Source: Antedon mediterranea
Lineage: Eukaryota; Echinodermata; Crinoidea; Comatulida; Antedonidae
Assembly: GCF_964355755.1 (NCBI RefSeq)
Contig: NC_092670.1
Location: 40,659,795-40,723,794, forward strand
Direction: 5' to 3'
DNA: 64,000 bases
This document shows, piece after piece, positions 22,145 to 63,750 of this stretch (its first letter is position 1; each line of letters begins with the position of its first letter). The notes below the pieces were generated by a model. The model was not told where the DNA came from. It worked only from the letters and a program-made list of their open reading frames with translations, and did no database searches. Both the position numbers and the translations under genes were made by a program.

Positions 22145-24550
22145 TCATTCACGAGGAATGGCACAAATTTTAAATGGTTTTGGACTCATTGTTAACCCTA
22201 CAAGGGGATCAAGGTCCGGTAGAGGTTCACCTTCTGGAATTATTAATTTAAATCGTTGAAAGAAATTGGTCATGAATAGGAAAATCTCCATCTTGGCCAT
22301 ACTCTCACCCAAACAAGCTCTTCTTCCTGTAACACAATAATTGATTAATTAATTATTTCTTCTTTTGTTTTCATTTTATTATCTATATGCAATGCATTGC
22401 TTTGTTTGTTTGGATAAAAAAATAAATCTCAACGAAATACTGAATAAGAAAATGAAAATTCTAATTCATTCAGTAAATTAAAAAATGTTTTGTTTTTCAT
22501 TTTACAAAAATCAAATTTGTTTACTTACCAATACCAAAAGGCATGAACATTTTCGGTTTGTTAACTTTTTGTCCATCTTCTATTAAGAATCTTGAAGGGT
22601 CAAATGTCATAGGATCATCCCAATACTTTGGATCAGTGTGGATCCTATAGAGATTAAGATTGATGATTGTTCCTTTTGGAAGCTTGTAACCTTTTACAAG
22701 ACACTCTTGCGCGTTTCCATGCGGCAGAGTCGCACCTGCTATGTTGCCCAATCGCTGCACTTCACATGTGGTAGCTTCAAAATATGAGAGGCTGGTTTGA
22801 TCGGCCATTGTTGGTTTTCTACCATCTAGAACATCATCAATTTCTTTTCGAACCTAACAAGGAATAAGTAAGAATATAAGTTGTTCCGCCACTAGAGAGT
22901 GTACCATCTTATTTGGCATATTTGATTTGGGGACTTTTTTGTTAAGTATTTGTTTCCCTTTTTAGTACCTTTCCTGTGGAGTAATTTACAGAGTTTCCAA
23001 GTGCTAAAGCTTGGTTCCAACGCACGGACGCAACGCAAGGAAAAGTATGGACAAATGTGATAGTTAGACTATGCCACTACAGTATTTCTTAAGCATACTT
23101 TATCTTGGACTTCTTGATAAGTTGCCATGTAAATGAAAAACCACATCAAAGTGCTGGATGTTGTTTCAGCCCCTGCAATAAATATCGTCAAAAGGGACGT
23201 CCACATGACGTCTGCATTAAAGAATTTCTTCTCCTCTTTATCACACATTTCACCTTCTGCGAGGAGTCTATCAGTAATATCTCTGATGTTTTCAGGGTCA
23301 AAGGTCTCTTTATGTTTCTTAACTTGATTCCTTACAAACTCTGTAAGGTATATCGCTGGAAGTGCCTTGTGTTTGAACATTGGTAGAGACATTATAGACG
23401 GTATATGCGTTTCTATATTTTTTAAACTGCACTGCTTAAAGAACTTCAACAAATTTTGTAAGAGTTCCTGGAACTCTGGATCTGAGTATTCATAGCGGTC
23501 ACCAAATGCTATATTGCAGATAATATTGGCGACGGCACAGTTCACAATATGCTGAGGGTTGAAGGGGTCAGAGCGGTAATTGCCAGTCTCTTGGCAGAAA
23601 ATGTCAATTTCTGTTTTTATCTTCACTTCTAGACTTCTTTTTCCCATTCCAAAATAACGCAAGGCGGTTATCATCCATCTTCTCCTGGCCTTCCAGGCTG
23701 GACCATTTTCCCATACGACACTTCCTAAAAGGATATAATACCATATTAATCTCAAGAATTGCCGCTACTGCTGTTTCGCACGACACCGTTAAATTATTAA
23801 TTTCTCATCTAACTTTTAATTAATTTAATAAAATATTATTTAATGTCACCATATGTATCATCTAAAGCAATGTTCTCTTCCCCTGCCGCCATGAAAAGCC
23901 TCTTTCACCAATTGCGTAAACCAGTACTGTGTCATTTACAACAAGTGGGAGCTTCTTGCTCTGGACTCTGGATGCTTTATTGATATCAGGTCAGAGACCC
24001 TGCTTCTTGCTCTAGTGGCCATAGACACTGTCTGGACTCTGGATGCTTTTTCTTTCAGGGTTATCTTTACGATAGATTTGACAAACAAATTTAAAACATT
24101 ATAGCGTCGCCTTTTTTATTTGACATCCAATAAGAAGCATTCTATTTGTGGGAAGGGGAAGAGAGTTTAAATTGTCAACACTGAATCCATAAAATACTCA
24201 CCTTCTGTAGCCATATTGTACGTCATAAAGGGAACAAAGTTCCGTTCTGAAAACAATTCTGGTTGTTTCTGGAACATATCTATGGCAAGCTGTCCATCAT
24301 TTATCCAAATTGAAACTCGAAAAGGTCCCTGATATAGAGTCATTATATCGCCGAACTTCTCAGCCCATTCACACATCCTGTTGATCGGTCTCTTTCCGTA
24401 GGAAAGCATATTTCCCACGATCGGCAGCGGAGTAGGTCCGAGTGGAAGTGAATTTATCGAGCGTTGACGAAGATACAACGTTGAAAATATGATAACAAAC
24501 ACAATATACGTGCTGTAATTGGTAATCAAATCTGATAACAACAAACTCAT
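22145..24550 (-). CDS. Cytochrome P450, clan 2 (CYP2-like), downstream tandem copy
   Basis: Four exons join to 493 residues: 24202-24550, 23099-23724, 22529-22853, 22145-22326 (TGA). An N-terminal membrane anchor (about residues 11-27) is followed by the hinge LPLGPTPLPIVGN; family members usually have PPGP. The C-helix region WKARRRWMITALRYFGMGKR is CYP2-like. The I-helix has AGAETTSSTLMW, the K-helix ExxR is Glu356-Arg359 (EVQR), and the haem loop is FGIGRRACLG with axial Cys438. All residues needed for a haem-thiolate monooxygenase are present, so it should act in the ER membrane with P450 reductase; the substrate cannot be told. Exon lengths (349, 626, 325, 182) equal those of the neighbour at 29827-32500 exactly, showing recent tandem duplication. 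Confidence 0.95.
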
Positions 24551-25021
24551 TTTTATAAAAAGAATATTTAAACAACAGGTTAAATACAACATGAATTAGG
24601 CTTTGAACAACACACAACCAGCTACTTTCTGTACCTGCGATCACGAGTCCGTGTGTTTGTGGTTTATGCCTGGCTCCGGGGTTCAAGCAGCAAAGATAGT
24701 GTATCAATTACAATACACTAAAAAAAAACACTTAAAGAAGATAGCGATGGCATGATACCGTATTATTTATTTGTTTGTTAAACATTTTGGCAAATAACGC
24801 AAAAGGAAACCATGGGCCTATGGGTAGTGGGTACCTTATCCAAACTTCTGAGCGGCAATTACTTAGGTTATTCATCCACTTTTTTACATAGTACAAACAA
24901 TCAAGGTAGGCGGCTATACTTTCAGTCCCTGTGTGAATGAATTTTAGTAAAAACTGTTTAGGCGCGCAACAACGCAAGTGAGTTAAGTTGATCAATCAAT
25001 GGACACGATCGTTGTTGTCGC

Positions 25022-29826: not shown

Positions 29827-32500
29827 TTATTCCCGAGGAATTGCACAAACTTTAAATGGTTTTGGACTCATTGTTAACCCTACAAGGGGATCTAGATCCG
29901 GTAGAGTTTCACCTTCTGGAATTATTAATTTAAATCGTTGAAAGAAATTGGTCATTACGAGGAAAATCTCCATCTTGGCCATACTCTCACCCAAACAAGC
30001 TCTTCTTCCTGTAAAACAATTATAGTTTATTTATTATAGTATAAATATGTATAAGTATTACATTTATTATTACAATTTTTTTCATCTTGGTTGAATTTTA
30101 AAGAAAAAATCGATATTTATGTTTAAAAACATTGCACAAGTTACTGAATACGATAAAAATTAAAACATCAATTTTAATTTATTTCAAAAAATCAAATTGG
30201 TTTACTTACCAATACCAAAAGGCATGAACATTTTCGGTTTGCTAACTTTTTTCCCATCATCTATTAAGAATCTTGAAGGGTCAAAGGTCATCGGATCATC
30301 CCAATACTTTGGATCAGTGTGGATCCTATAGAGATTAAGATTGATGATTGTTCCTTTCGGAATCTTGTAACCTTTTACGACACACTCTTGCGCGTTTCCG
30401 TGAGGCAGCGTGGCACCTGCTATGTTGCCCAATCGTTGCACTTCATATGTGGTAGCTTCAAAATATGGGAGGCTGCTTTGATCGGCCATCGTTGGCTTTC
30501 TACCATCCAGAACATCATCAATCTCTTTCCGAACCTAACAAAGAATAAGTAAAAGAATATGAGTTGTTCTGCCACTTGAGAGTGTACCATCTTATTTGGC
30601 ATATTTGATTTGGGGACTTTTTTGTTGAGTATTATTCTCCCTTTTTAGTAACTTCTAACAATGCATTTCCTGCGGAGTAATTTACAGAGTTAATTTCCAA
30701 GCGTTAAAGCTTTTTTCATTTCATTTCATTACATTATTTATTTGGTCAATTTAAGTATATACAAAACAAAAAAAAACTGAAATTGGGGAGACCAGGGTCA
30801 ACCTAAGTGAACTTAATCACTGTAGCTGAGCCGGTTGACCAACTAGGACGCAACGCAAGGAAGTAAGTGCAACACAAGTGAGCTGGTGACTGCTCACTTG
30901 TCAACTCACTGGTGTTGCTCTTGCATATTGCATCCTTGTTGGATCCTGCTTTTATAGTAAATACTCAACTCAACTTGGTTAAGTTTCCAATCAATTACTG
31001 TACTCCAATTATTATCTAGCTACTACTACTAGTGATTAGTGAAAATGTTGTCAAATACTATTAACATTTACAATGGAAGAATATTTCTTAAGGAAGCATA
31101 CTTTATCTTGGACTTCTTGATAAGTTGCCATGTAAATAAAAAACCACATCAAAGTGCTGGATGTTGTTTCAGCCCCTGCAACAAATATCGTCAAAAGGGA
31201 CGTCCACATGACGTCTGGATTAAAGAATTTCTTCTCCTCTTTGTCACACATTTCACCTTCTGCGAGGAGTCTATCAGTAATATCTCTGATGTTTTCAGGG
31301 TCAAAGGTCTCTTTATGTTTCTTAACTTGATTCCTTACAAACTCTGTTAGGTATATTGCTGGAAGTGCCTTGTGTTTGAACATTGGTAGAGACATTATAG
31401 ACGGTATATGCATTTCTATATTTTTTAAACTGCACTGCTTAAAGAACTTCAACAAATTTTGTAAGAGTTCCTGGAACTCTGGATCTGAGTATTCATAGCG
31501 GTCACCAAATGCTATATTGCAGATAATATTGGCGACAGCACAGTTCACAATATGTTGAGGGTTGAAGGGGTTAGAGTGGTAATTCGCAGCTTCTTGGCAG
31601 AAAATGTCAGTTTCTGTTTTTATCTTCACTTCTAAACTTCTCTTTCCCATTCCAAAATGACGCAAGGCCGTTATCATCCATCGTCTCCTGGCCTTCCAGG
31701 CTGGGCCATTCTCCCATACAACGCTTCCTGAAAGATAAAACATATTATTCTCAAAAGAATTTTAGAATGTATTGTTACCAAAAACATGAAACTGAAGATT
31801 TATAAAATCAAACTTAATAGTCTATTTTGCAACTTTAATCAAGTTAATCACTTTTGTAGTGAAAAAAGACAAAATAAACGGTTAAATTTGTACCAAAAGC
31901 TAATTGGTTAGCAGTCAATTTTATTATTTTTTGCTTTATTGCAGTTTTTTTAAGGTAAATTTTTTTTTCAATCCAATTTTTGGTAAGTGAATATGTACAT
32001 TAAAATTGCATATTCAAGCAAAAAATGTTTAAAAATTATTTTTTCAAAAGAAAATATATCTTTAAATAAATTTATTTTATTTGGCATACAAAGACATCAG
32101 ATTCTTTATGGCTTTAAAAGAAATGGCAGCACTGTCTCCAAAACGTCTTACCTTCAGCAGCCATGTTGTACGTCATAAAAGGAACAGGGTTTCGTTGTGA
32201 AAACAGGTCGGGTTGTTTTTGGAACATATCTATGGCAAGCTGTCCATCATTTACCCAAAGCACAACTCGAAAAGGTCCCTGGTACAGAGTGATTATATCG
32301 CCGAACTTCTCAGCCCATTCACAAATTCTTTTATACGGTGTCTTTCCGTAGGAAAGCACATTTCCCACGATCGGCAGCGGAGTAGGGCCGGGTGGAAGTG
32401 AATTTATCGAGCGTTGACGAAGATACAACGTTAAAAAAATGATAACAAACACGATATACGCGCTGTAGTCGCTAACAGAATCAGATAACAACAAACTCAT
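29827..32500 (-). CDS. Cytochrome P450, clan 2 (CYP2-like), upstream tandem copy
   Basis: Exons 32152-32500, 31102-31727, 30210-30534 and 29827-30008 (TAA) join to 493 residues, collinear with and closely similar to the copy at 22145-24550. It has the N-terminal anchor, an intact hinge SLPPGPTPLPIVGN, the I-helix AGAETTSSTLMW, the ExxR pair and FGIGRRACLG with the haem-binding cysteine. Most differences lie in the N-terminal region, where substrate-recognition site 1 follows. Introns differ more than exons, except near splice sites. The last part of exon 4 and its 3' flank are partly duplicated at 29770-29820 (ATGATTTTGGACTCATTG), a noncoding fragment. Substrate unknown; an ER monooxygenase is expected. 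Confidence 0.95.
30700..30960. other. MITE family 2 fragment and simple sequence in P450 intron
   Basis: ACTAGGACGCAACGCAAGGA, AGTAAGTGCAACACAAGTGA and later inverse words (TGCATCCTTGTTGGATCC) show a degraded MITE family 2 copy in intron 2. The equivalent intron of the other P450 gene keeps a different fragment at 23010-23045, so both insertions predate or straddle the duplication. Confidence 0.5.
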
Positions 32501-35712: not shown

Positions 35713-38700
35713 ATGTTGAGGAGTGTAAGGTGCTTAAAGGAGTTACTAAAACTAAGTAAATCTTCTACAAAAATCACCAAAAAACAAGTGTAAGTTTAAA
35801 CTATCTGCTATTTTTAATGTTTGTGCTTTTTTATACTTTCAAATTTCATTTTTTTTAATGATAAAAATGGTGTATGTTTGTCCATAGAGATATTATATAC
35901 ATGTACTATAATATCTCAGGTTTATCTATTTATTGTCATTTGTTATCTTTTGTAGTTTAAATGGGGCCCTTAGATTATGTAGTGGATTAAATAGTACTTT
36001 CATGCTTTTGAAAGACACATGTAAAAAGACAATAGACAGGTATTATTACAGTATTTCTCTTTTTTTTTCATTTTTAGAACTCTAGCGCCATTTATGATGA
36101 GTACTAAGCATGGAAGTGATCATCTGGAAAGGACATCTAACGAAGAAAGGACAAATGTGAGTTTTTTCTTTGATTTAATGTCAAGAGATTTGTAATTCCA
36201 GAGAGGCGAATAAGCAATTTGCTTTAGCCTTAATTTCAAGGTAATTCAAGATATGTTTTTATGTTACACATGCACATTTTATATAGATTGCTTAATTTTC
36301 ACTCTGTCCTTTCTCATTTTTAAGTTTCCTGAATCTTAATAGTTTACACATGTTTTTATTTTTGATTGATACTTGTATTTATGTTATGTTATACTTTATA
36401 GATGTGAAATTGAATTGAGTTTAATATATTGTAATTTTTTATTTATTAAAATAAGAAATATTTTTATTTACTTTACACGTTACAGCCAGAGTATTCCGAG
36501 GCAGAGGTCATTGAACTTAATGACATGTCGCCTACTGTCAAGCGACTTTTACTAAAAGTAAACGACCAATCATTTATTTTTAAAGCTGGCCAATGGTAAG
36601 ATTATAAATAGTTCATATTTATTAGGTTAATACTACAGTAGGTATAGGTGATATCATCATGGGTGTCTAGAAAATTCAGATATAGAAAACTCAGATCTCA
36701 GATATCTGAGTTTTCTAGATCTAGAAAACTCAGATATCAATACAGTATCTGACTTTTCTAGTTCCAAAATGAAACTAGAAAACTCAGATCATCATTTGAT
36801 TGGTTGGTAGGTCATTTGGATCATTCCATTATTAATCGGAAGGTAGGTCATTTGAAATACTAGAGTATTATTAAAACTGATTACTGTGTACATTTTCTTA
36901 CTAATATTGTAACATGTAGAAGCGGCCTACGGCTTAAATCATAAAGAAAATACAGTGCATGTTACCATTAAAATATAGGCTTAAAAATGAGGCATGTACG
37001 AGTTGGTGTGGGTACGAGTTGGTGTGGGTAGAAGTTGGTTGAGGTATGAGTTAGCCAAGTTTGGAATAGGTACGAGTTGACCACTTGTAGTCTAGTACTG
37101 TAGGACCAGGTCTACTCTTCGCGATACATCGCGATAGCGCCCACATGTTGAGCCTTGAAATGAATTGAGTTTGCTTAGCTAGGCCTAAATGCTAAGCCTA
37201 CATTTTAAAAGGTGTAAACTGTATTTCTTTATGATTTAAGTCGTAGGCTGCTACTACAAGTTACAATAATTATTAGTTTTCTAGCTCTAGAAAAGTCAGA
37301 TATCTGAGTTTTAGAAAACTCAGATATATCTGAGATCTGAGTTTTCTAGACACCCTATCATCATGGGTATGTTTTATGAGTAAAGCCTGGTTTCCATTAA
37401 AATCGCTACAGCGTTTCCATTAAAATCGCTACACGCGCAGATGTTGCCGACGCAATCGGGAAGGCTCCCCGATTCATCGCAGTCAAATCGGCAAAGTTCA
37501 ACCATGTTCCATTGTGTCGGCGATGAATCGTATACGCGTACCAAAGAATATTTAGCGCTCGCGTACTAGATCCCCGATAAATTCTAGTTTCCATAGAATC
37601 GCTACTCTCTGTCGTGTAGCGATTTTATGGAAACCAGGCTTAAGGTAAGAATATAGGAGGATCCAAAGAGGGAACAAGCTGACCCAACCCCCACTAAGTC
37701 TAAATAATTGCAAAAGATAGGACATATGTTGAGTTCTTTTTCAATTTTAAACCCTTGAATCATTGATTTAAAAGTGTAGGTGTAATCAGTTTTTTTGTAA
37801 TATTTCAATTTTTAATTGTTTTGTAGGGTAGACTTCATCATTCCCAACATTGAAACATTCACAGGCTTCTCCATGTCTTCATCACCTGACCAACTCCAGT
37901 CATCCTTCATTGAGCTTGCCGTTCAATTTAGTGATTACCCTCCCACCCTCTGGGTCCACAAAGAGGTAACAATCATTATTTTGTTTATTTCAGGGTGGAT
38001 TTCTATATACACGATCCAACAGTGCAAATAGTAGGAGGGTATTCTATATCATCAGAGCCTTTTCAGTTTTTGTACAATAGAGTTTTAGAGTTAGCTGTCA
38101 AATTTAGTAAATACCCTCCAGCCTTTTGGACACATACGCAGGTATGAAATAAAACACTAAATTTATGTGCACTTTTCTAGTTACAGTATTATTTATGTTG
38201 AAATAAACAAAATCGTTTTGCAGTAGAATTTTGACATTATCCCTATACGATCAAATTTTATGGGAGAAAAAAATGATGATGATGTCATATCACTACCATA
38301 TTTGGGCACATCAAACTTTTTTTGTCAAACTAGTTGGATAGTGTGGACAGAGCTTAATACTTGATCATTTTTTTTTCAAGTGTCAAATTGGAAATAAGGT
38401 TTCACTACGTGTCGGAGGAACTCAAATTATATATGACCCCCAGCCAAGTGACCCGCATTACAATGTTTTACTAATTGCTGGAGGTATCGGTATCAACCCT
38501 CTCCTATCAATGATACGTCACGCCAACAGTCTAAAGAGGGCGCAAACTCATTGGTTTTCCCCTGTGCGTTTTCAATTACTCTATAGTGCATCTACAAGGA
38601 AAGAATTAATTTTTCAGGTAGTATATTTTCTTCAGATTTTTTTCTATGTTCTATTAAAGGATATTTGTACTGGTGGTTATTTAAGCATGGGAATTTAAGC

Positions 38701-39837
38701 AAGAAGCACCAAAGTGGGCTACTGTTTTTTCTGAATAGAAAAATGTTTTATTAAATTACAATCCACTTTCTTAGATAGTTTTGATTACGGTATATAATTA
38801 ATGTTTTTGTTTTTTGTTACAGGATGATATAAGTGAGATTGTAAACAACTTTCCATCCGTTTTTCAAAGTACATTATTTGTCACTCAGGAAGACGTATCG
38901 TCAGACAATAAATATACTCAGGGTATGTACAAGTTAGGTTAGATAATAATTACAATTCTGTTGAGTCAGTAATAAACTCTATATTATTATAACTGTCATT
39001 TCGGTACAATTACAGTATTATCATTAACTCTATGTTATTGTTGGGTAACTATAACTAATTAAGTAATATTTATTGAAAGTACAATTTATAAAATAAAATA
39101 AAGTACAATTTATAAAATAAAATAAAGTACAATTTATAAAATAAAATAAAGTACAATTTATAAAATAAAATAAAGTACAATTTATAAAATAAAATAAAGT
39201 ACAATTTATAAAATAAAATAAAGTACAATTTATAAAATAAAATAAAGTACAATTTATAAAATAAAATAAAGTACAATTTATAAAATAAAATAAAGTACAA
39301 TTTATAAAATAAAATAAAGTACAATTTATAAAATAAAATAAAGTACAATTTATAAAATAAAATAAAGTACAATTTATAAAATAAAATAAAGTACAATTTA
39401 TAAAATAAAATAAAGTACAATTTATAAAATAAAATAAAGTACAATTTATAAAATAAAATAAAAATGAATATGAATACATAGAATAATACAAACATTATAC
39501 TTGAGAGAAATTAAGCCCAATGTTTGTTTCCAACTTACTTAAGACAATACTTAAGACAATACTTAAGACAATACTTAAGACAATACTTAAGACAATACTT
39601 ACACTTCAGTTCATTCTCCTCTTCATCTAACTTAAGTCATTACTATCTCATCTAAAACTTTAATTTATTACAGGTCGAATTCAAGATTCACATCTAGCAA
39701 GTGCTGTTCAAGAATTTGGTTCGGAAAACTTAGAATGTTATATATGTGGACCACCACCAATGATAGAAGATATGGAATCTAGTCTACTTAAGTTAAACAT
39801 GAAACCTGAAAATGTTCATTATGAAAAGTGGTGGTAA
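35713..39837 (+). CDS. OXNAD1: OXNAD1-like mitochondrial FAD/NAD-binding oxidoreductase
   Basis: Exons: 35713-35789, 36078-36156, 36486-36595, then either 37827-37965 (4A) or 37994-38141 (4B), then 38381-38617, 38823-38922, 39674-39837 (TAA). Either path stays in frame, giving about 300 residues. Exon 1 encodes a basic, hydroxylated, acid-free start typical of a mitochondrial presequence. The body has a ferredoxin-reductase fold: FKAGQW before the FAD loop, GFSMSSSP (4A) or GYSISSEP (4B) as flavin-binding motif, YDPQP, the nucleotide loop LIAGGIGINPLLSMIRHA, YICGPPPM, and the C-terminal YEKWW, all as in vertebrate OXNAD1. An electron-transfer role with NAD(P)H is expected from the fold; the partner is not known. 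The TIR element at 36661 and MITEs sit in its introns. Confidence 0.92.
36661..37355. mobile_element. TIR element with 9-bp target duplication TATCATCAT
   Basis: TATCATCAT flanks both ends (36652-36660 and 37356-37364). The termini are GGGTGTCTAGAAAA and TTTTCTAGACACCC. Subterminal zones are packed with CTCAGATATCTGAGTTTTCT-type palindromes on both sides. The middle has AGTTGGTGTGGGTACG tandem units at 36999-37065. The 9-bp duplication would suit a Mutator-like transposase. It is inserted in OXNAD1 intron 3. Confidence 0.88.
37384..37645. mobile_element. MITE with TIR AAGCCTGGTTTCCATAAAAT, related to family 2
   Basis: The left end AAAGCCTGGTTTCCATTAAA and the right end, complemented, TAAGCCTGGTTTCCATAAAA both run on into ATCGCTACA. 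The left TIR is partly duplicated. The outermost bases resemble MITE family 2 (AAGCTTGGTTCCCA), suggesting mobilisation by a related transposase. Confidence 0.85.
37827..37965 (+). CDS. OXNAD1: OXNAD1 alternative exon 4A
   Basis: A 139-nt exon, entered in phase 2 (TG|G) and left in phase 0. It encodes VDFIIPNIETFTGFSMSSSP and, further on, ELAVQFSDYPPTLWVHKE. Donor GTAACA is mediocre; acceptor TTGTAG is good. It is the copy closer to the vertebrate OXNAD1 sequence (GFS-x-x-SSP, LWVH). It precedes exon 4B by 28 bp. Confidence 0.88.
37994..38141 (+). CDS. OXNAD1: OXNAD1 alternative exon 4B (mutually exclusive with 4A)
   Basis: A 148-nt exon with the same entry and exit phases as 4A. It encodes VDFYIHDPTVQIVGGYSISS and ELAVKFSKYPPAFWTHTQ, about 20 identities to 4A over 46 positions with three extra residues. 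The flavin motif becomes GYSISSEP. The acceptor is TATTTCAG and the donor GTATGA. Inclusion of both 4A and 4B shifts the frame to a TAG at 38078-38080; retaining the 28-bp spacer stops at 38029-38031. So only one can be used per functional transcript. Confidence 0.82.
38268..38356. mobile_element. MITE family 1, right part only
   Basis: GATGATGTCATATCACTACC, CATATTTGGGCACATCA and the end TAGTGTGGACAGAGCTTA are present; the left end is missing. It lies just before OXNAD1 exon 5. Confidence 0.85.
39076..39461. repeat. 24-bp minisatellite, 16 near-identical copies
   Basis: The unit AAAGTACAATTTATAAAATA plus AAAT repeats almost without change in the last OXNAD1 intron. Because 24 is a multiple of three, it produces long open frames on the minus strand (TLFYFINC repeats) that are artefacts. 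Confidence 0.97.
39535..39602. repeat. 12-bp tandem repeat ACTTAAGACAAT, about five copies
   Basis: Five head-to-tail copies lie 72 bp upstream of the last OXNAD1 exon, within the region of its branch point and acceptor. Confidence 0.93.
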
Positions 39838-44282: not shown

Positions 44283-47200
44283 TTTATCATATAATACATT
44301 ACAAAGGAAAAACATAATCAAATAAAAAATTAAAATAAAAAGCAACAAACAAAAACAACAAAGATATCCATCTAACAAATTAAATAAAGGTTCATAAAAA
44401 TTATTCTACTCTATAAACCATTTTATATTTGATTTATAAATTCTTCTAATTTTATCCATTTTCTATTAAAAATACTGTCCTCAAAATTCTGATGATAAAT
44501 AAATTTTTCTGTTTCATAAAACCTTTTTAACTCGTTCATAACCATTTTGATAGTTGGCTTACATTTAACTAGTTTACATTTATAAATAAATGATTTTACA
44601 ATTAGAATAATTGCATTAATGGCTTTTAAATTAAAAAACTGATGCGCATCTTGGTATCCGAAAATTATGCTCTCTTTACTAAAAATAAATTGCACTCCAG
44701 TTTTTTCTGAAATTTTTTCCTGGAGGAGGTTCCATATCCTTTTTACTATTGGACAATTACAGAACAAATGCTGAATGGTTTTAATTTTACCATCTCCAAA
44801 TGAGCACATTGAAGTTTCTTTTATATTCATTTTAAATAATTGTTCATTTGTTGCAATTATTCTATTTACAATTTTATATTGAAAATATATTAAAGCAATA
44901 TTCATTGTACACGTATGTGGAGCTAGGTAGATTGTTTTCCATTGTTCGTTATTGAATACAAATTTATTTTCTGCCCATTTCTTTTGTGCTTTCCACGATT
45001 TAAACATTGAGTTATTTAAAACATCATAAAAAATACGACATCCCTTTCTTTGTTGAAAGAGTACTTTTATGTGAAATGGAATATCTGGCAAAACTGTTTT
45101 TTTAATTTCACATATCATTAAATTGTTAAATTTTTCCCTAAGAAGCCTTTTTAATCCTATTAATTTTATATAATTTATCTTAATACCATAGGTATCTTCG
45201 ACTTCTTTTTTATTCATAAATTGCCCATTGCTGTTAAACAAATCATTAACAAACAAAATACCTGCTTTTTCCCAATTTCCATATCTTATACATTCGTTGC
45301 CTATTCTTATTACTTCATTATTCCAAATTTGCATTCGTAATAGCTCGTCAACAGACTTTGGATAATGAATAGAAATAAAATTACTCCATGCATCTATTAC
45401 CTCTTTCCAGAAGAGAATTTTAACATTATCTCTAATGCTGGACAGACGTTTACAATTCGTTTCAAGTTGCATAGAGTTAGACAAATTTGTTATGTACTTA
45501 AATAGCTTAAATATTGGGTTGTCTTCGGATTTATTGTTGAAAATTCTACGCAACCAAGTTATTTTTAATGACATAAAAAAAAAGTTCAAATCTACCATTC
45601 TTAATCCACCATGTAAGTAATCACTTTTCATCTGATGCCGGTTTATTTTATCAGGTTTGTTTTGCCAAATAAAACGAAAAAATAAATTATTAAGACGTAC
45701 TACGTATTCATTTGATGGGTTCGGTAAGGACATGATCATATGAATGAGTTTTGGTAACAAGAGTGATTTAATAATAGTTATTTTACCAATTACTGTCAAG
45801 TTTCGTTTAGACCATTGGTTTATCATACGCTCTATCGTTAAAAACACTCTTTCATAGTTTACATTAATCATTTGAACTGCATCTAATGAAAAGTCAATAC
45901 CTAAAATTGAAAATATGGCATTGCCTATCCAGTTTATCTTTTTTCTTGTTTTTAACCTTACATTGCTACCTCTCTTACTACCTATCCATACAACTTTTGT
46001 TTTTTCTTCATTTATTCTTAAACCGGAAATACTCTCGTATGTATCCAGTGTATCGAGTGTTGCATGCAGTGATGCTTCAGACCCATCAAGTATAATGGTA
46101 GTGTCGTCTGCATATTGAGATATTGTATATTCCTCATCTCTAATTTTAACTCCCTTAATTAGTTTGTTTTGCTTTATTAAATTATTCAATATTTCTGCAC
46201 AAATTATAAAAATATATGGAGAAAGAGGGTCTCCTTGTCTACAGCCTCTTTCAATTTTAAAACGATTTGACATAGCACCGTTAACATTAACTGAGGAATA
46301 CATTTCCGAATAAAAAATTGTAATCCACCTTCTAATAGACTCGCCAAAGTTAAACATTTCCATGGCTCTATCAATGAATATATGTGAAACAGAGTCGAAG
46401 GCTTTTTCGAAGTCAATTAATAATAGCATACCGGGAATCTTTAACTGTTCACTAAGACATATAATGTCATTCATTAGTCTAATATTTTCGCCAATAAATC
46501 TATCTGGCATAAAACCGTTTTGCTCTCTACTTATAATATGACTTAATACATTCTTTATTCGATTAGCTATACATCCAGACGCTAACTTATAGGTGATGCT
46601 TAATAGTGATATAGGTCGCCAATTTTTTAGAAGGTCCCTTGGTTTATTCGGTTTAGGTATAAGCGTTATGATTCCAATTTGTTGAGATTGAGATAGTTTT
46701 CCGTTCTTATACACCCAATCGAGCATTCTAACTAAATAACCACTAATATTAATCCAGAAAAATTTAAAGAATTCGGCGGAGAAACCATCTTGTCCGGGAC
46801 TTTTATTGTTTTTCATATTTTTAAGAACTTGTAATATTTCATCAATTGTTAATGGCCCTTCAATTTCCTCCTTTTGTTTTTGTGATAATTTTGTCATACT
46901 ATTTTTTTCAAATATTGTTTTCATAGTTACAAGATCAATTTTAACGTCTTTGTTTTTGTACAATTTGTTATAATAACTTTCTACATTCTTTATAATTTGT
47001 TTATTATCAGTTATATCCTGACCCATTTCCCTCCTAATTTTATTCAAACTTTTATTTACAATCTTTTTTTTCTCCAAATTAAGGAAGAAAGAAGATGGTT
47101 TTTCCCCTTGTTCCACCAACTGAGCTCGCGATCTCAGCATGATCCCTTCAATTTTAACCATACGTAATTGTTGTAATTCAATCTTTATGGAATTTAGCTC

Positions 47201-48249
47201 TTCAATATTGTTGTCCATTTCTGGACCAATTTGAAGGTCATCCATCTTTCTTTCAATTACATTAATTTTATCTTCTAATTCTTTTTCTCGCTTTTCATTT
47301 TCTTTTTTTAACCTTGAGGAGAACGAAATTGTTTTGCCTCTTATTCCTAAGAGCAACATTTCAAAAAATAATGCATCATTAATAGAAAGGGACAAATCTG
47401 AGACTGGGATATCCTTAATTGTGTCTCTTTTGTATGGCGACGCAGCATATAGTTCTGTAATTGTTTGGATTTCTTTTTTAACTATTTTAACATATTCCTC
47501 ATTTCTTAACAAGCTATTATTGAACTTCCAATAGGTGATTCTATCTTTTTTCGTTTGTGTTAATACCTTTAAGCTAACCAAAGAGTGATCTGTACGATAT
47601 CCTGGGTCTATTTTACATGTGTCTATTATTGAGAGTAATTCCTCTGATATCAAAAAGAAATCGAGCCGTGCTTGTTTTAGTGGTTTGTGTTGTCGCCATG
47701 TAAACCTTTTTATGTCAGGGTGTATTGTTCTCCATGCGTCTATTAAATCATTTTCTGACATAAGTTTAAGTACCAACGCAAGCATGTTGACCAATGACAA
47801 GAGGCAGTTTGAATAATCCATCGCTTGTGATTGGTTAACTCACTTACGTTGCGTTACGTCCTTGTGTTGCGTTTCTAGTGGGAACCAAGCTAATTACACA
47901 AGACATTTCAAAGTTTGGTTCCATTAGGACGCACCTCAAGTCAAGTGAATCATTGACGTTCATCAAATTCAACTCTTTATATGGAGACTTTATATTCGTA
48001 TATGGCCAGCAGCGTCGCGATTGGTCAAACGTTGCTTGTTTGTTTCTTTTAACTGTAATGTAAATTATTTCAAATTGTATTACAGATACGAATTTTAATT
48101 GCAGAAAAGGTAAATATGTCACAAAATATAAAGTACCTCCAACAGACGAAGTGAGAGCGATACTCTATCAGGAGATGGCTTTGGAATATGAGTTTTTTGA
48201 ATTTATAAAACAACGATTAAATAAACAAAAACAATCATTGGGTATATAG
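40966..48249 (+). CDS. UST: Uronyl 2-O-sulfotransferase-like enzyme
   Basis: Eight exons join to 337 residues: 40966-41095, 41577-41680, 41971-42114, 42930-43009, 43144-43276, 43568-43665, 43913-44073, 48086-48249 (TAG). The N-terminus has a short cytosolic part and a signal anchor (about residues 12-28: ILFGIFILILFCL), giving a type II Golgi protein. The 5'-phosphosulfate loop is NRVPKCGSRS (85-94); UST has NRVGKCGSRT while HS2ST has NRVPKTASTS. HRHMFYIDF carries the likely catalytic histidine (143 or 145). INIIRDPIER is the 3'-phosphate site, followed by YYFRRFGD, IIPFFCGDSPECL and FIMVGLLEDF, all UST-like. It should transfer sulfate from PAPS to O-2 of iduronic/glucuronic acid in dermatan/chondroitin chains. 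Exon 3 uses a weak GTTGTC donor. The last intron is over 4 kb because of nested transposons. Confidence 0.9.
42145..42277. mobile_element. MITE family 1 copy
   Basis: The ends are TAAGCTCTGTCTACACTATC and GTGTAGACAGAGCTTTA, with GATGTGCCCATA, TCATATCACTACC and CATATTTGGGCACATCACA inside. It lies 30 bp beyond the UST exon 3 donor. Confidence 0.92.
42334..42604. repeat. 27-bp minisatellite, ten copies
   Basis: The unit is GATGTGATGCATTACCATGA plus ATGTGAA, ten times with a single variant in copy 2. As a multiple of three it yields long frames on both strands (DVMHYHECE; MVMHHIFTF). It lies in UST intron 3. Confidence 0.97.
43681..43820. mobile_element. MITE family 2 copy
   Basis: The ends are AGCTTGGTTCCCACTTGAAC and ATGGGAACCAGGCTT. 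The interior shows the family's GTTGACCAATCACAAGCGAC and inverse AATTGGTCAATTTGC. It begins 17 bp after the UST exon 6 donor. Confidence 0.9.
44175..47891. mobile_element. MITE family 2 copy split by a LINE
   Basis: The left half starts AAAACTTGGTTCCCACAAGG and carries a local duplication of ATGTAAACGCAACGCAAGC. The right half continues at 47785 with TGTTGACCAATGACAAG and ends TTCTAGTGGGAACCAAGC. Removing the LINE and one copy of the target duplication restores a normal family 2 element. A further fragment (GTTTGGTTCCATTAGGACGC) follows at 47911. Confidence 0.88.
44249..47773 (-). mobile_element. 5'-truncated Tx1/L1-type LINE with open ORF2
   Basis: On the minus strand the element starts near 47773, inside the C-terminal end of an APE endonuclease (LDFFLISEELLSII, YRTDHSLVSL), and reads to a stop at 44423. 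The reverse transcriptase has NNKSPGQDGFSAEFFKFFW, NWRPISLLSITYKLAS, LLIDFEKAFDSVSH, RGCRQGDPLSPYIFIICAEI and the catalytic QYADDT (YADD at 46103-46114). A CSFGDGKIKTIQHLFCNC segment is a C-terminal Cys/His motif of this clade. A poly(A) tail appears as poly(T) at 44249-44280. CAACGCAAGCA flanks both ends (44238-44248; 47774-47784). The absence of stops over 1.1 kilocodons shows a young insertion. The leading residues of the open frame come from the MITE. Confidence 0.94.
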
Positions 48250-60900: not shown

Positions 60901-63750
60901 TGCCAACGGAAAGAAGTTTTAAAAAAAGCAAAAGTGCCACTTCAACCTATACCCGTAACAGATACTGCTTTCAGACAGATCGGTATGGATATTGTTGGGC
61001 CTTTGGTAAAGACAGAAAATGGTAAGGTATCTCATGACAAATTACTGAAAAACAAAAATGCTGTGACTGGATAAAAAAGCTAAATCAAAACGTAAAAGTA
61101 AAAAGCAAGAAGACATGAATGAAATACGTTCAGAAAACTTTGTAATTCATTCTTCAGGGCCTAAAATTACAGTTAATAATTAGTTCTGTTCGGCCTTTAT
61201 TGTAATAGGGCTGAACTTAAATTTATTATTGTAAAGGCACAAGCGCAATTTCTGTGAGGTTTCTTGAAATTGTTAACTAAACTAAAATTATGACAGTTCT
61301 CTTTTTTACACTGTCAACAAAAACTAGATTTACCAAGAATCAGATGCTCTTATTATTGTCACCGGATTTACATCGATTATGGCTATACTGTAATAATCTT
61401 TATTTCTGCCTGTTTTAATTTGATCCAAACCATGACTGGGGTAATACTGTTCAGCGCATAGAGGTTTTACAACATTAGGCGCTATGTAAATCCACGATAT
61501 TATTATTGTTCTTGTTCTTATTATATTTATTGATATTAATATTGTTATTATTATTGTTATTTCATTCGTACAGTTCGGGTGTTGTACATCTCATCATGAC
61601 ATTTTGACACTACTATTATTACGGCTTATTATATTATTATTTGCTGTGTTTCAGGTAATCGGTACTTACTTGTATTTACGGAGTACCTTACCAAATGGGT
61701 GGAAGCTGATGCAATTCCAGATAAATCTGCTAAAACAGTGCTGAGATCTTTTATTGATTTTGTCTGCAGACATGGAACACCTTCTATATTGATTACAGAC
61801 CAGGGTAGAGAGTTTTGTAATGAGCTGAATGACAGCTTCTGTAAGCTGATTGGGGTAGACCACAGAGTTGCCTCACCATACCATCCTCAAACAGGCGGGC
61901 AAACGGAGCGCTTTAACAGAACACTTTGCACAATGCTTATGACGTTGACCAACGCAGACCAAAATGACTGGGATATACAACTCCCATACGTGTTGTTTGC
62001 CTACAGAACATCCGAGCACAAGTCTACGAAATGTGACCCATTCTCATTAGTTTACGGTAGAAAGGCTGTGTTGCCTGTAGAATTACGTATTCCCATCGTT
62101 TCGTCTAATAAAGATGACATATCCGGAACTGTTCCTTTAAAAATAAGAGTGGACGCTTTTTTGAAACTCAAAGATTCAAGGAGAAAGGCATCAGAAAATA
62201 TCAAAAAAGCACAGAAAAAGCAAAAACATTATCATGATGCTGGTGTTAAAAGCAACACGTACTATGCAGGAGATCAAGTGCTCTTGCAGAATTCCAGAAA
62301 TTTGTCAAGAAAGGGAGGCAAACTTAATGCTCGATGGACTGGTCCATATATTATAGAAAAAGTCCTCACTCACAATACATATCGACTAAAAGGAAGAAGG
62401 GCTATTGTTAACGGAAACAAGATCAGACATTACAAGTCCGATAAAACAACCTCTTTGAACTGTCCATCATCAAGCACTAAACAGAAATGTAATACCAATG
62501 ATAAGCATCTCCCTCCAAAGAAACGAAAGCGAACGCCAGACATCCCACCTGAAGTAACGCACCATGATAACATACCTACATCCAAGAATGGTGATATCAC
62601 ACCGGATGATCACATTATTAACATACCTACATCCAAGAATGTTGATGATAACGATAACAGACCTACATCCAAGAATTATGATATCACACCGGATGATCAC
62701 ATTAACATACCTACATCCAAGAACGATGATATCACACTGGATAATCACGATAACATACCTACATTAGACAATGATAATGTCGCACCGGATGATGACCATG
62801 ACAACAGTAGGCCTGTATCTGATAGTGATGTGGTATACCTCAACACGAAAACTTCAAGAAAGTTATTCTTTCCTGTCGATGCCAATTGGCAGCTTGAAAA
62901 GGCAGCACCATTTGGTATCAATGTCAAAAATTTTCACAAAACTCACTTAAAATGTGAAATGGACAAGGCAGCCAGGCCTACTAAAGTTGTTAATATGAGA
63001 GGGGACGGCAACTGTCTTTTTAGGGCTTTGAGTTATATTCTCTTTGGTGTCCAGAACTACCATGTAGTTGTACGGGATTACATACTAAACTATATGTCCA
63101 TGAACAAAAACCTATTTGAAAAAATTGAATCCAGATCATTTGAACGATACGTGGAAGACACGAGAATGGGGGAATATGGGACATGGGGTTCGGACATCGA
63201 AATCATGGCATTTGCGACCATGTCAAATACGAATGTTTATGTTTACAGTAAATATGGAAGAAGGAAAGGGCTTCCACATTATGAATGGTTGAAATATGCA
63301 CCAATAAGTAATCAGTTTGGTGATTTAGTATCTGAAAGAAACATCTACCTATCAAACTTATGTGCACACTTTGAGCCTGTCCTGGATGTAGACAAGAAAA
63401 CTTATGACGCTGAATTAAAATACACTCGTACACCATACGCACCAATCAAAAACCACCTTGCACGGAAATACTGGGATATTGTATCCGATGTGACCCTCAA
63501 TGCTGCTCTGGTAGATAATTACGAAGATGAAGCGGTAATGCGTTCCGAAGGCATTATGGACGTTATATACGTATCTGAATTCACGGACACACATTATGAC
63601 ATTGAAGCAGTCAACCATCTAAAAGATGATATCGATCCAAATATATTCAATTTGCTTTGTGACATGGAACATTTCCCGGAAAGGATTCATCAGAGCAACA
63701 ATGAAGTACCTGGACAATTATATGTTGATTCATACAACGTCACTCTTTAA
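57926..63750 (+). CDS. Gypsy-integrase-like transposase fused to an OTU protease domain (Ginger1-type)
   Basis: Three exons, 57926-58173, 60822-61021 and 61655-63750 (TAA), join to 847 residues. Features in order: YPVNY (18-22), resembling the YPYY motif; a His/Cys zinc-binding domain (H70, H74, H77; C107, C110); a DDE core with Asp139 (GMDIVGP), Asp198 (ITDQGREF) and Glu234 (HPQTGGQTERFNR), spacing D-35-E; a GPY/F module (RWTGPYIIEKV, 376-386); a repetitive acidic linker (IPTSKN and DITPDDH units); and an OTU cysteine protease domain at about 594-725 with Asp600, Cys603 (RGDGNCLFRALS) and His721 (LCAHFEP). Ginger1 DNA transposons are described as having this integrase plus a C-terminal OTU or Ulp1 domain. 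There is no reverse transcriptase and there are introns, so it is not a Gypsy element. Active transposon or domesticated host gene cannot be decided here; terminal repeats were not found. Confidence 0.87.
59340..60075. mobile_element. Single arm of the GACCACC foldback family, in intron 1 of the integrase-OTU gene
   Basis: It repeats the order of 55425-55905: CACCTGCAGCTTATGTA, GGAACGAAAATTGCATCCCA, AAATCATGTGCAAATGCATC, CTATCCATCTATCCACGTCT, then a long degenerate array of GACCACC/TCTCGTAAG/GGGACCGCTTCTCATAATC units. The inverse arm is missing. Confidence 0.82.
62560..62790 (+). repeat. In-frame tandem repeat in the linker of the integrase-OTU protein
   Basis: The DNA unit ACATACCTACATCCAAGAAT with GATATCACACCGGATGATCA repeats about four times in frame, encoding IPTSKN and DITPDDH units. 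It separates the integrase from the OTU domain and is expected to be disordered and acidic. Confidence 0.93.

Follow-up and report, generated by a model that had tools for sequence, protein, structure and literature searches.

The window analysed here, a 64,000-nt stretch of the Antedon mediterranea genome, contains a complete OXNAD1-like gene at positions 35713-39837 of the forward strand, composed of 7 exons with GT-AG borders throughout (Table 1). Exon 4 is present in two adjacent versions, 4A and 4B, and a splice-consistent gene model gives an open reading frame of 301 aa when only 4A is included and of 304 aa when only 4B is included. With either exon the protein ends in EKWW, and the motif ICGPPPM is encoded in exon 7. 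The identity of the gene as OXNAD1, first proposed in a sequence-only reading of this DNA, is borne out by a match to NAD_binding_1 (PF00175; 2.9e-14, Pfam), by the presence of the CGPPPM motif of the C-terminal NAD-binding domain, and by ferredoxin-reductase-type (FNR-type) family profiles that match along the whole length of the protein. The scores of these FNR-type profiles fall far below any curated cut-off, as expected for a eukaryotic member of the ferredoxin-reductase-type superfamily.

Table 1. Coding exons of the OXNAD1-like gene, the spacer between the two versions of exon 4, and the arms of the inverted repeat around 4B (positions within the window).
Feature	Position	Strand	Details
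Coding exon 1	35713-35789	+	ATG at 35713; splice-consistent model, frame open
Coding exon 2	36078-36156	+	Splice-consistent gene model
Coding exon 3	36486-36595	+	Phase 2 at end (TG/G); gene model
Alternative exon 4A	37827-37965	+	W-VDFIIPNIETFTGFSMSSSPDQLQSSFIELAVQFSDYPPTLWVHKE; 139 nt; gene model, 4A/4B alignment, profile gain
Spacer	37966-37993	+	GTAACAATCATTATTTTGTTTATTTCAG; GT...AG, 28 nt, between 4A and 4B
Left arm of inverted repeat	37978-37992	+	15 nt, perfect; spans the 4B polypyrimidine tract to the A of the acceptor AG
Alternative exon 4B	37994-38141	+	W-VDFYIHDPTVQIVGGYSISSEPFQFLYNRVLELAVKFSKYPPAFWTHTQ; 148 nt; gene model, 4A/4B alignment, profile gain
Right arm of inverted repeat	38199-38213	+	TGAAATAAACAAAAT; starts 58 nt past the final base of 4B
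Coding exon 5	38381-38617	+	Phase 0; joined by 4A or 4B
Coding exon 6	38823-38922	+	Gene model
Coding exon 7	39674-39837	+	TAA stop, last base 39837; gene model

OXNAD1 is single-copy in the 354-Mb assembly of this animal, and a search of that assembly for a second copy or a haplotig found neither. A scan of prokaryote genomes for relatives of the locus returned one distant bacterial reductase (24% identity), which is uninformative on the exon pair; a search of viral contigs found no relatives, and a scan of the interval from 34 to 41 kb of the window against the Rfam families gave no match. In human, DPH3 and OXNAD1 share a bidirectional promoter (PMC4742151); a search of the window with a DPH3 query sequence did not find that gene.

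Several further features were seen within and around the gene. Intron 3 holds inverted-repeat elements resembling small non-autonomous transposons at 36661-37355 and 37383-37641, with CTCAGATATCTGAGTTTTCTAGA palindromes and AAGCCTGGTTTCCATTAAA termini. The intron preceding exon 7 contains, at 39076-39462, a perfect minisatellite consisting of 16 copies, 100% identical, of the 24-bp unit AAAGTACAATTTATAAAATAAAAT, and a second minisatellite with a 12-bp unit lies at 39536-39601. Elsewhere in the window, inspection by eye identified tandem cytochrome P450-like genes on the reverse strand (23069-24592 and 31051-32500), whose nearly identical exons indicate a recent gene duplication, a 1132-aa open reading frame of reverse-transcriptase (LINE-like) sequence (44423-47821, reverse strand), and an open frame fusing retrotransposon integrase-like and OTU-protease-like parts (61699-63750, forward strand).

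The exon 4 pair as a probable ancient tandem duplication

The two versions of exon 4 are clearly related to one another: 24 of 47 aligned residues are identical, and all gaps in the alignment comprise whole codons. Nucleotide identity at the first, second and third codon positions is 57, 77 and 34%, respectively (permutation P of 1e-4), and the proportion of synonymous differences is saturated (pS of 0.84, or 25.25 of 30 synonymous sites), compared with a pN of 0.33; the pS estimate is drawn from only about 30 synonymous sites, and the third-position difference is partly compositional. Taken with the matching phases and the similar lengths of 139 and 148 nt, the level of identity and its codon periodicity corroborate a tandem duplication as the origin of the pair. 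In simulations of neutral drift run to the observed third-position divergence, none of 4000 runs retained an amino-acid identity of 51% or more, and an open frame survived in just 2-4% of runs, with the remaining 96-98% acquiring stop codons. Because drifting copies never kept the observed identity, both exons must have been under constraint for most of a long period, and the best reading of the pair is an ancient tandem exon duplication in which neither member is a recent or a decaying copy. It could still be that one of the two exons has lost its function recently, without having gained a stop codon as yet.

One compositional feature sets 4A apart. Codons ending in C make up 20 of its 46 codons, as against 6 of 49 in 4B (P = 0.001) and 33 of 253 in the tally taken for the other exons (P = 6e-6). 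The bias could stem from an exonic splicing signal or from a conversion event in the past.

Two observations on myosin sequences in the same genome concern exon and gene duplication more generally. Within G000:C1:19156500-19163500, at about 19159547-19159821, a myosin gene contains two adjoining homologous stretches, separated by what looks like an 84-nt intron and each followed by GTAAGT, which likely represent a second tandem exon duplication. Over about 5.5 Mb (G000:C3:19.6-25.1 Mb), there are at least 20 scattered fragments of the myosin head, mostly on one strand, that match identical parts of the profile (342-408 and 564-640); this arrangement suggests that myosin genes or fragments have expanded locally on a large scale. 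Tropomyosin matches, considered as a possible benchmark for alternative exons, were weak and mostly confined to one repetitive frame, and were set aside.

Exon 4 and the predicted flavin-contacting segment

We compared the scores of reductase family profiles for the protein lacking exon 4 with those for the two complete forms. The BenC-type profile gives 68 bits without exon 4, 101 bits with 4A (a gain of about 33) and 87 bits with 4B (a gain of about 19), and the flavohemoprotein profile gives 60 bits without exon 4, 69 with 4A and 76 with 4B (about +15 for 4B). Since the inclusion of either exon lifts the scores above those of the exon-less protein, each one restores signal of the FAD domain. 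In weak alignments with the solved reductases 5ogx, 1krh and 1tvc, the segments GFSMSS of 4A and GYSISS of 4B line up with the RxYS flavin motif, where they stand opposite RSYSFSS of the benzoate dioxygenase reductase 1krh. The Arg of the motif is aligned, again weakly, with Thr in 4A and with Gly in 4B, and the position that corresponds to the flavin-stacking Tyr is occupied by Phe in 4A and by Tyr in 4B. These comparisons support the view that exon 4 encodes the predicted flavin-contacting segment of a ferredoxin-reductase-type FAD domain. The sequence-only reading had described it as an exon bearing an FAD motif, and the position it gave the exon, on the flavin-contacting segment, is supported by the alignment with 1krh; the Pfam FAD-binding model has no match to the OXNAD1-like protein, and the term applies by alignment only. 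The 4A and 4B proteins differ in the exon 4 segment only, including three residues of loop length, and the two forms may differ in function, possibly in the flavin environment or redox behaviour that the sequence-only reading proposed.

Reading frame and a 28-nt spacer favour inclusion of a single exon

Both exons are entered in phase 2, sharing with exon 3 a Trp codon split as TG/G, and both are left in phase 0. These phases, the exon coordinates and the 28-bp gap had all been given correctly to the base, and our reconstruction also reproduces the two premature stop codons that had been reported: joining 4A to 4B leads to a TAG at 38078-38080, and retention of the spacer leads to a TAG at 38029-38031. 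When both exons are skipped, the frame shifts and then reaches a stop. Inclusion of either 4A or 4B is thus the sole productive outcome, all other combinations stopping early.

With up to 3 mismatches allowed, the genome contains the spacer sequence a single time, and the remaining introns of the gene are at least 205 nt long. To hold strictly that no animal could remove an intron of 28 nt would be too strong, since in dicyemids introns of about 22-30 nt are spliced. The earlier statement that the spacer falls short of the introns normally spliced in animals does hold for typical animals, as the shortest introns found to be spliced, with validation, in human are reported to be 43 nt long (PMC4463651). 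Candidate branch points for 4B, recognized by consensus only and as imperfect matches, are located at 37969, 37975 and 37978, which correspond to +4, +10 and +13 relative to the 4A donor; a branch point farther upstream is unlikely because AG dinucleotides are present at 37962 and 37964. The distance from donor to branch point, with a spacer of 28 nt and consensus candidates at 4-13 nt, lies below the proposed minimum of about 50 nt (PMC7969005; PMC5740500). By consensus count, the 4A donor (GAG/GTAACA) ranks among the two weakest donors of the gene.

Under the mechanism that we propose, an ancient tandem duplication would have given rise to two alternative exons for the flavin segment, exactly one of which enters each mRNA. 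The spacer would at once provide 4A with its donor and 4B with its branch point, pyrimidine tract and acceptor. Within its 28 nt, binding of U1 to the donor of 4A and of U2 to the branch point of 4B would be mutually exclusive, because the plausible branch adenosines sit just 4-13 nt past the donor. Commitment to splicing of exon 3 to 4A to exon 5 would then block 4B, and commitment to splicing of exon 3 to 4B to exon 5 would block the 4A donor. The products of double inclusion, double skipping and spacer retention, all out of frame, would be targets of nonsense-mediated decay. On these grounds we predict with good confidence that 4A and 4B, as products of an ancient duplication, are spliced in a mutually exclusive manner through steric exclusion together with loss of frame.

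An inverted repeat around exon 4B

The region also contains a 15-nt perfect inverted repeat, absent from the sequence-only reading, whose arms would, upon pairing, loop out 4B and cover its acceptor. A stem of this length was reached in none of 2000 shuffles, and the duplex at the 4B acceptor has a predicted energy of -15.6 kcal/mol, compared with -3.5 to -12.9 kcal/mol for the other acceptors of the gene. The pair probability of the stem is near 1 in local folds and about 0.27 in a 681-nt context. The stem may nevertheless be part of the background, because perfect inverted repeats of 15 nt turn up in 24 of 174 comparable tiles of the window. The data are suggestive of a stem that could mask 4B, and such masking might, as a weakly grounded step of the mechanism, bias the choice toward 4A. 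A more elaborate version would treat the spacer as a switch built of overlapping signals, in which 28 nt combine the 4A donor, the branch point, tract and acceptor of 4B, and one arm of a stem able to mask 4B, kept over a very long time and toggling the reductase between two variants of the flavin site; we put this version forward only tentatively, as something that is rather unlikely to hold in full.

Alternative explanations

The reading most directly opposed to two functional exons is that only one of them is used, and that the other, a copy either silent or in decay, is free of stop codons by chance. The weak 4A donor and the unusual third-position composition of 4A would fit such a view. 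However, it is difficult to reconcile with saturated synonymous sites alongside conservation of half of the amino acids, with simulations in which neutral copies lose similarity and nearly always gain stops, and with splice sites and phases that are intact in both exons; in addition, the two exons show about equal numbers of identities (25 and 26) to a human OXNAD1 exon. We thus regard a silent copy as very improbable. A different possibility accepts both alternatives as real and attributes their exclusivity mainly to nonsense-mediated decay, possibly aided by RNA structure, rather than to a steric block across 28 nt. The exon lengths, neither of which is a multiple of three, and the early stops in the double-inclusion and skipping products are just what it would require, and the very short introns of dicyemid animals are in keeping with it. 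Some ciliates have introns of about 25 nt (PMC5014332), and in human clusters steric spacing occurs in 9%, compared with 60% for frame-breaking lengths (PMC5740500). Given that the spacer is below both the validated 43-nt human intron (PMC4463651) and the other introns of the gene, we consider decay as the main agent an unlikely explanation, if one to be taken seriously.

RNA structure could also act as a switch in its own right, if the segment at 38199-38213 paired with the acceptor of either 4A or 4B, one at a time, in the style of a docking site and selectors. The pairing with the 4B acceptor is perfect over its 15 nt, that with the 4A acceptor region (-12.9 kcal/mol) is stronger than those of the gene's other acceptors, and competitors of this kind have been proposed to arise by tandem duplication (PMC6071210). 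Yet the 4A pairing is marginal against shuffled sequences (P of 0.03-0.05), and for that reason we keep the docking-site switch as a rival only; the acceptor regions of 4A and 4B, moreover, have no detectable homology (P of 0.26-0.60), and the probability of the stem drops in the larger fold. A competing-structure switch accordingly appears improbable to us, and we retain mutually exclusive splicing through steric exclusion and frame loss as the preferred reading.

Relation to known mutually exclusive exons and implications

Metabolic enzymes in which a tandem-duplicated exon swaps a functional segment, as predicted here, include PKM (exons 9/10) and KHK (exons 3a/3c); unlike the OXNAD1 pair, these have longer introns, and studies exist of their regulators and of the kinetics of their isoforms. 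The nearest mechanistic parallel is OGDH, likewise an oxidoreductase gene with mutually exclusive exons (4a/4b), where in human branch points located 25-41 nt from the donor of the upstream exon enforce exclusivity (PMC7969005). OGDH differs in the gene and domain concerned (the Ca2+ response of an E1 subunit), in its longer intron and in its mapped branch points, whereas the case for OXNAD1 is a 28-nt spacer read from sequence. Exons 2/3 of alpha-tropomyosin and other steric pairs, a class surveyed in PMC5740500, resemble the OXNAD1 arrangement in that tandem exons are separated by too short a distance from donor to branch point; in alpha-tropomyosin, however, the branch point lies far upstream of the acceptor in a longer intron, while in OXNAD1 the donor, the candidate branch points, the pyrimidine tract and the acceptor all fall within 28 nt. 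The docking-site/selector clusters of Dscam, 14-3-3zeta and MRP1 (PMC6071210) similarly involve base pairing within introns close to alternative exons in tandem, but OXNAD1 has one strong stem, which would cover an acceptor rather than join sites, and a competing partner that is marginal.

In the literature searched, no paper describing mutually exclusive OXNAD1 exons was found, and the main text of two human surveys does not mention OXNAD1; in human tumours, an OXNAD1 splicing event of another type (tag AA) is on record. The 4A/4B pair thus appears to be undescribed so far, although the class of mechanism is well known from PKM, OGDH and tropomyosin. The spacer itself would provide a minimal natural test case for whether U1 and U2 exclude each other sterically, and it clearly predicts what junction reads should show. 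The reductase OXNAD1 is conserved, yet its function is obscure. If the proposed reading is correct, one gene would give rise to two enzyme forms in this crinoid; the long maintenance of two versions of the flavin site would then indicate two regimes, whether of substrate, of partner or of redox behaviour, and may offer a handle on the role of the enzyme.
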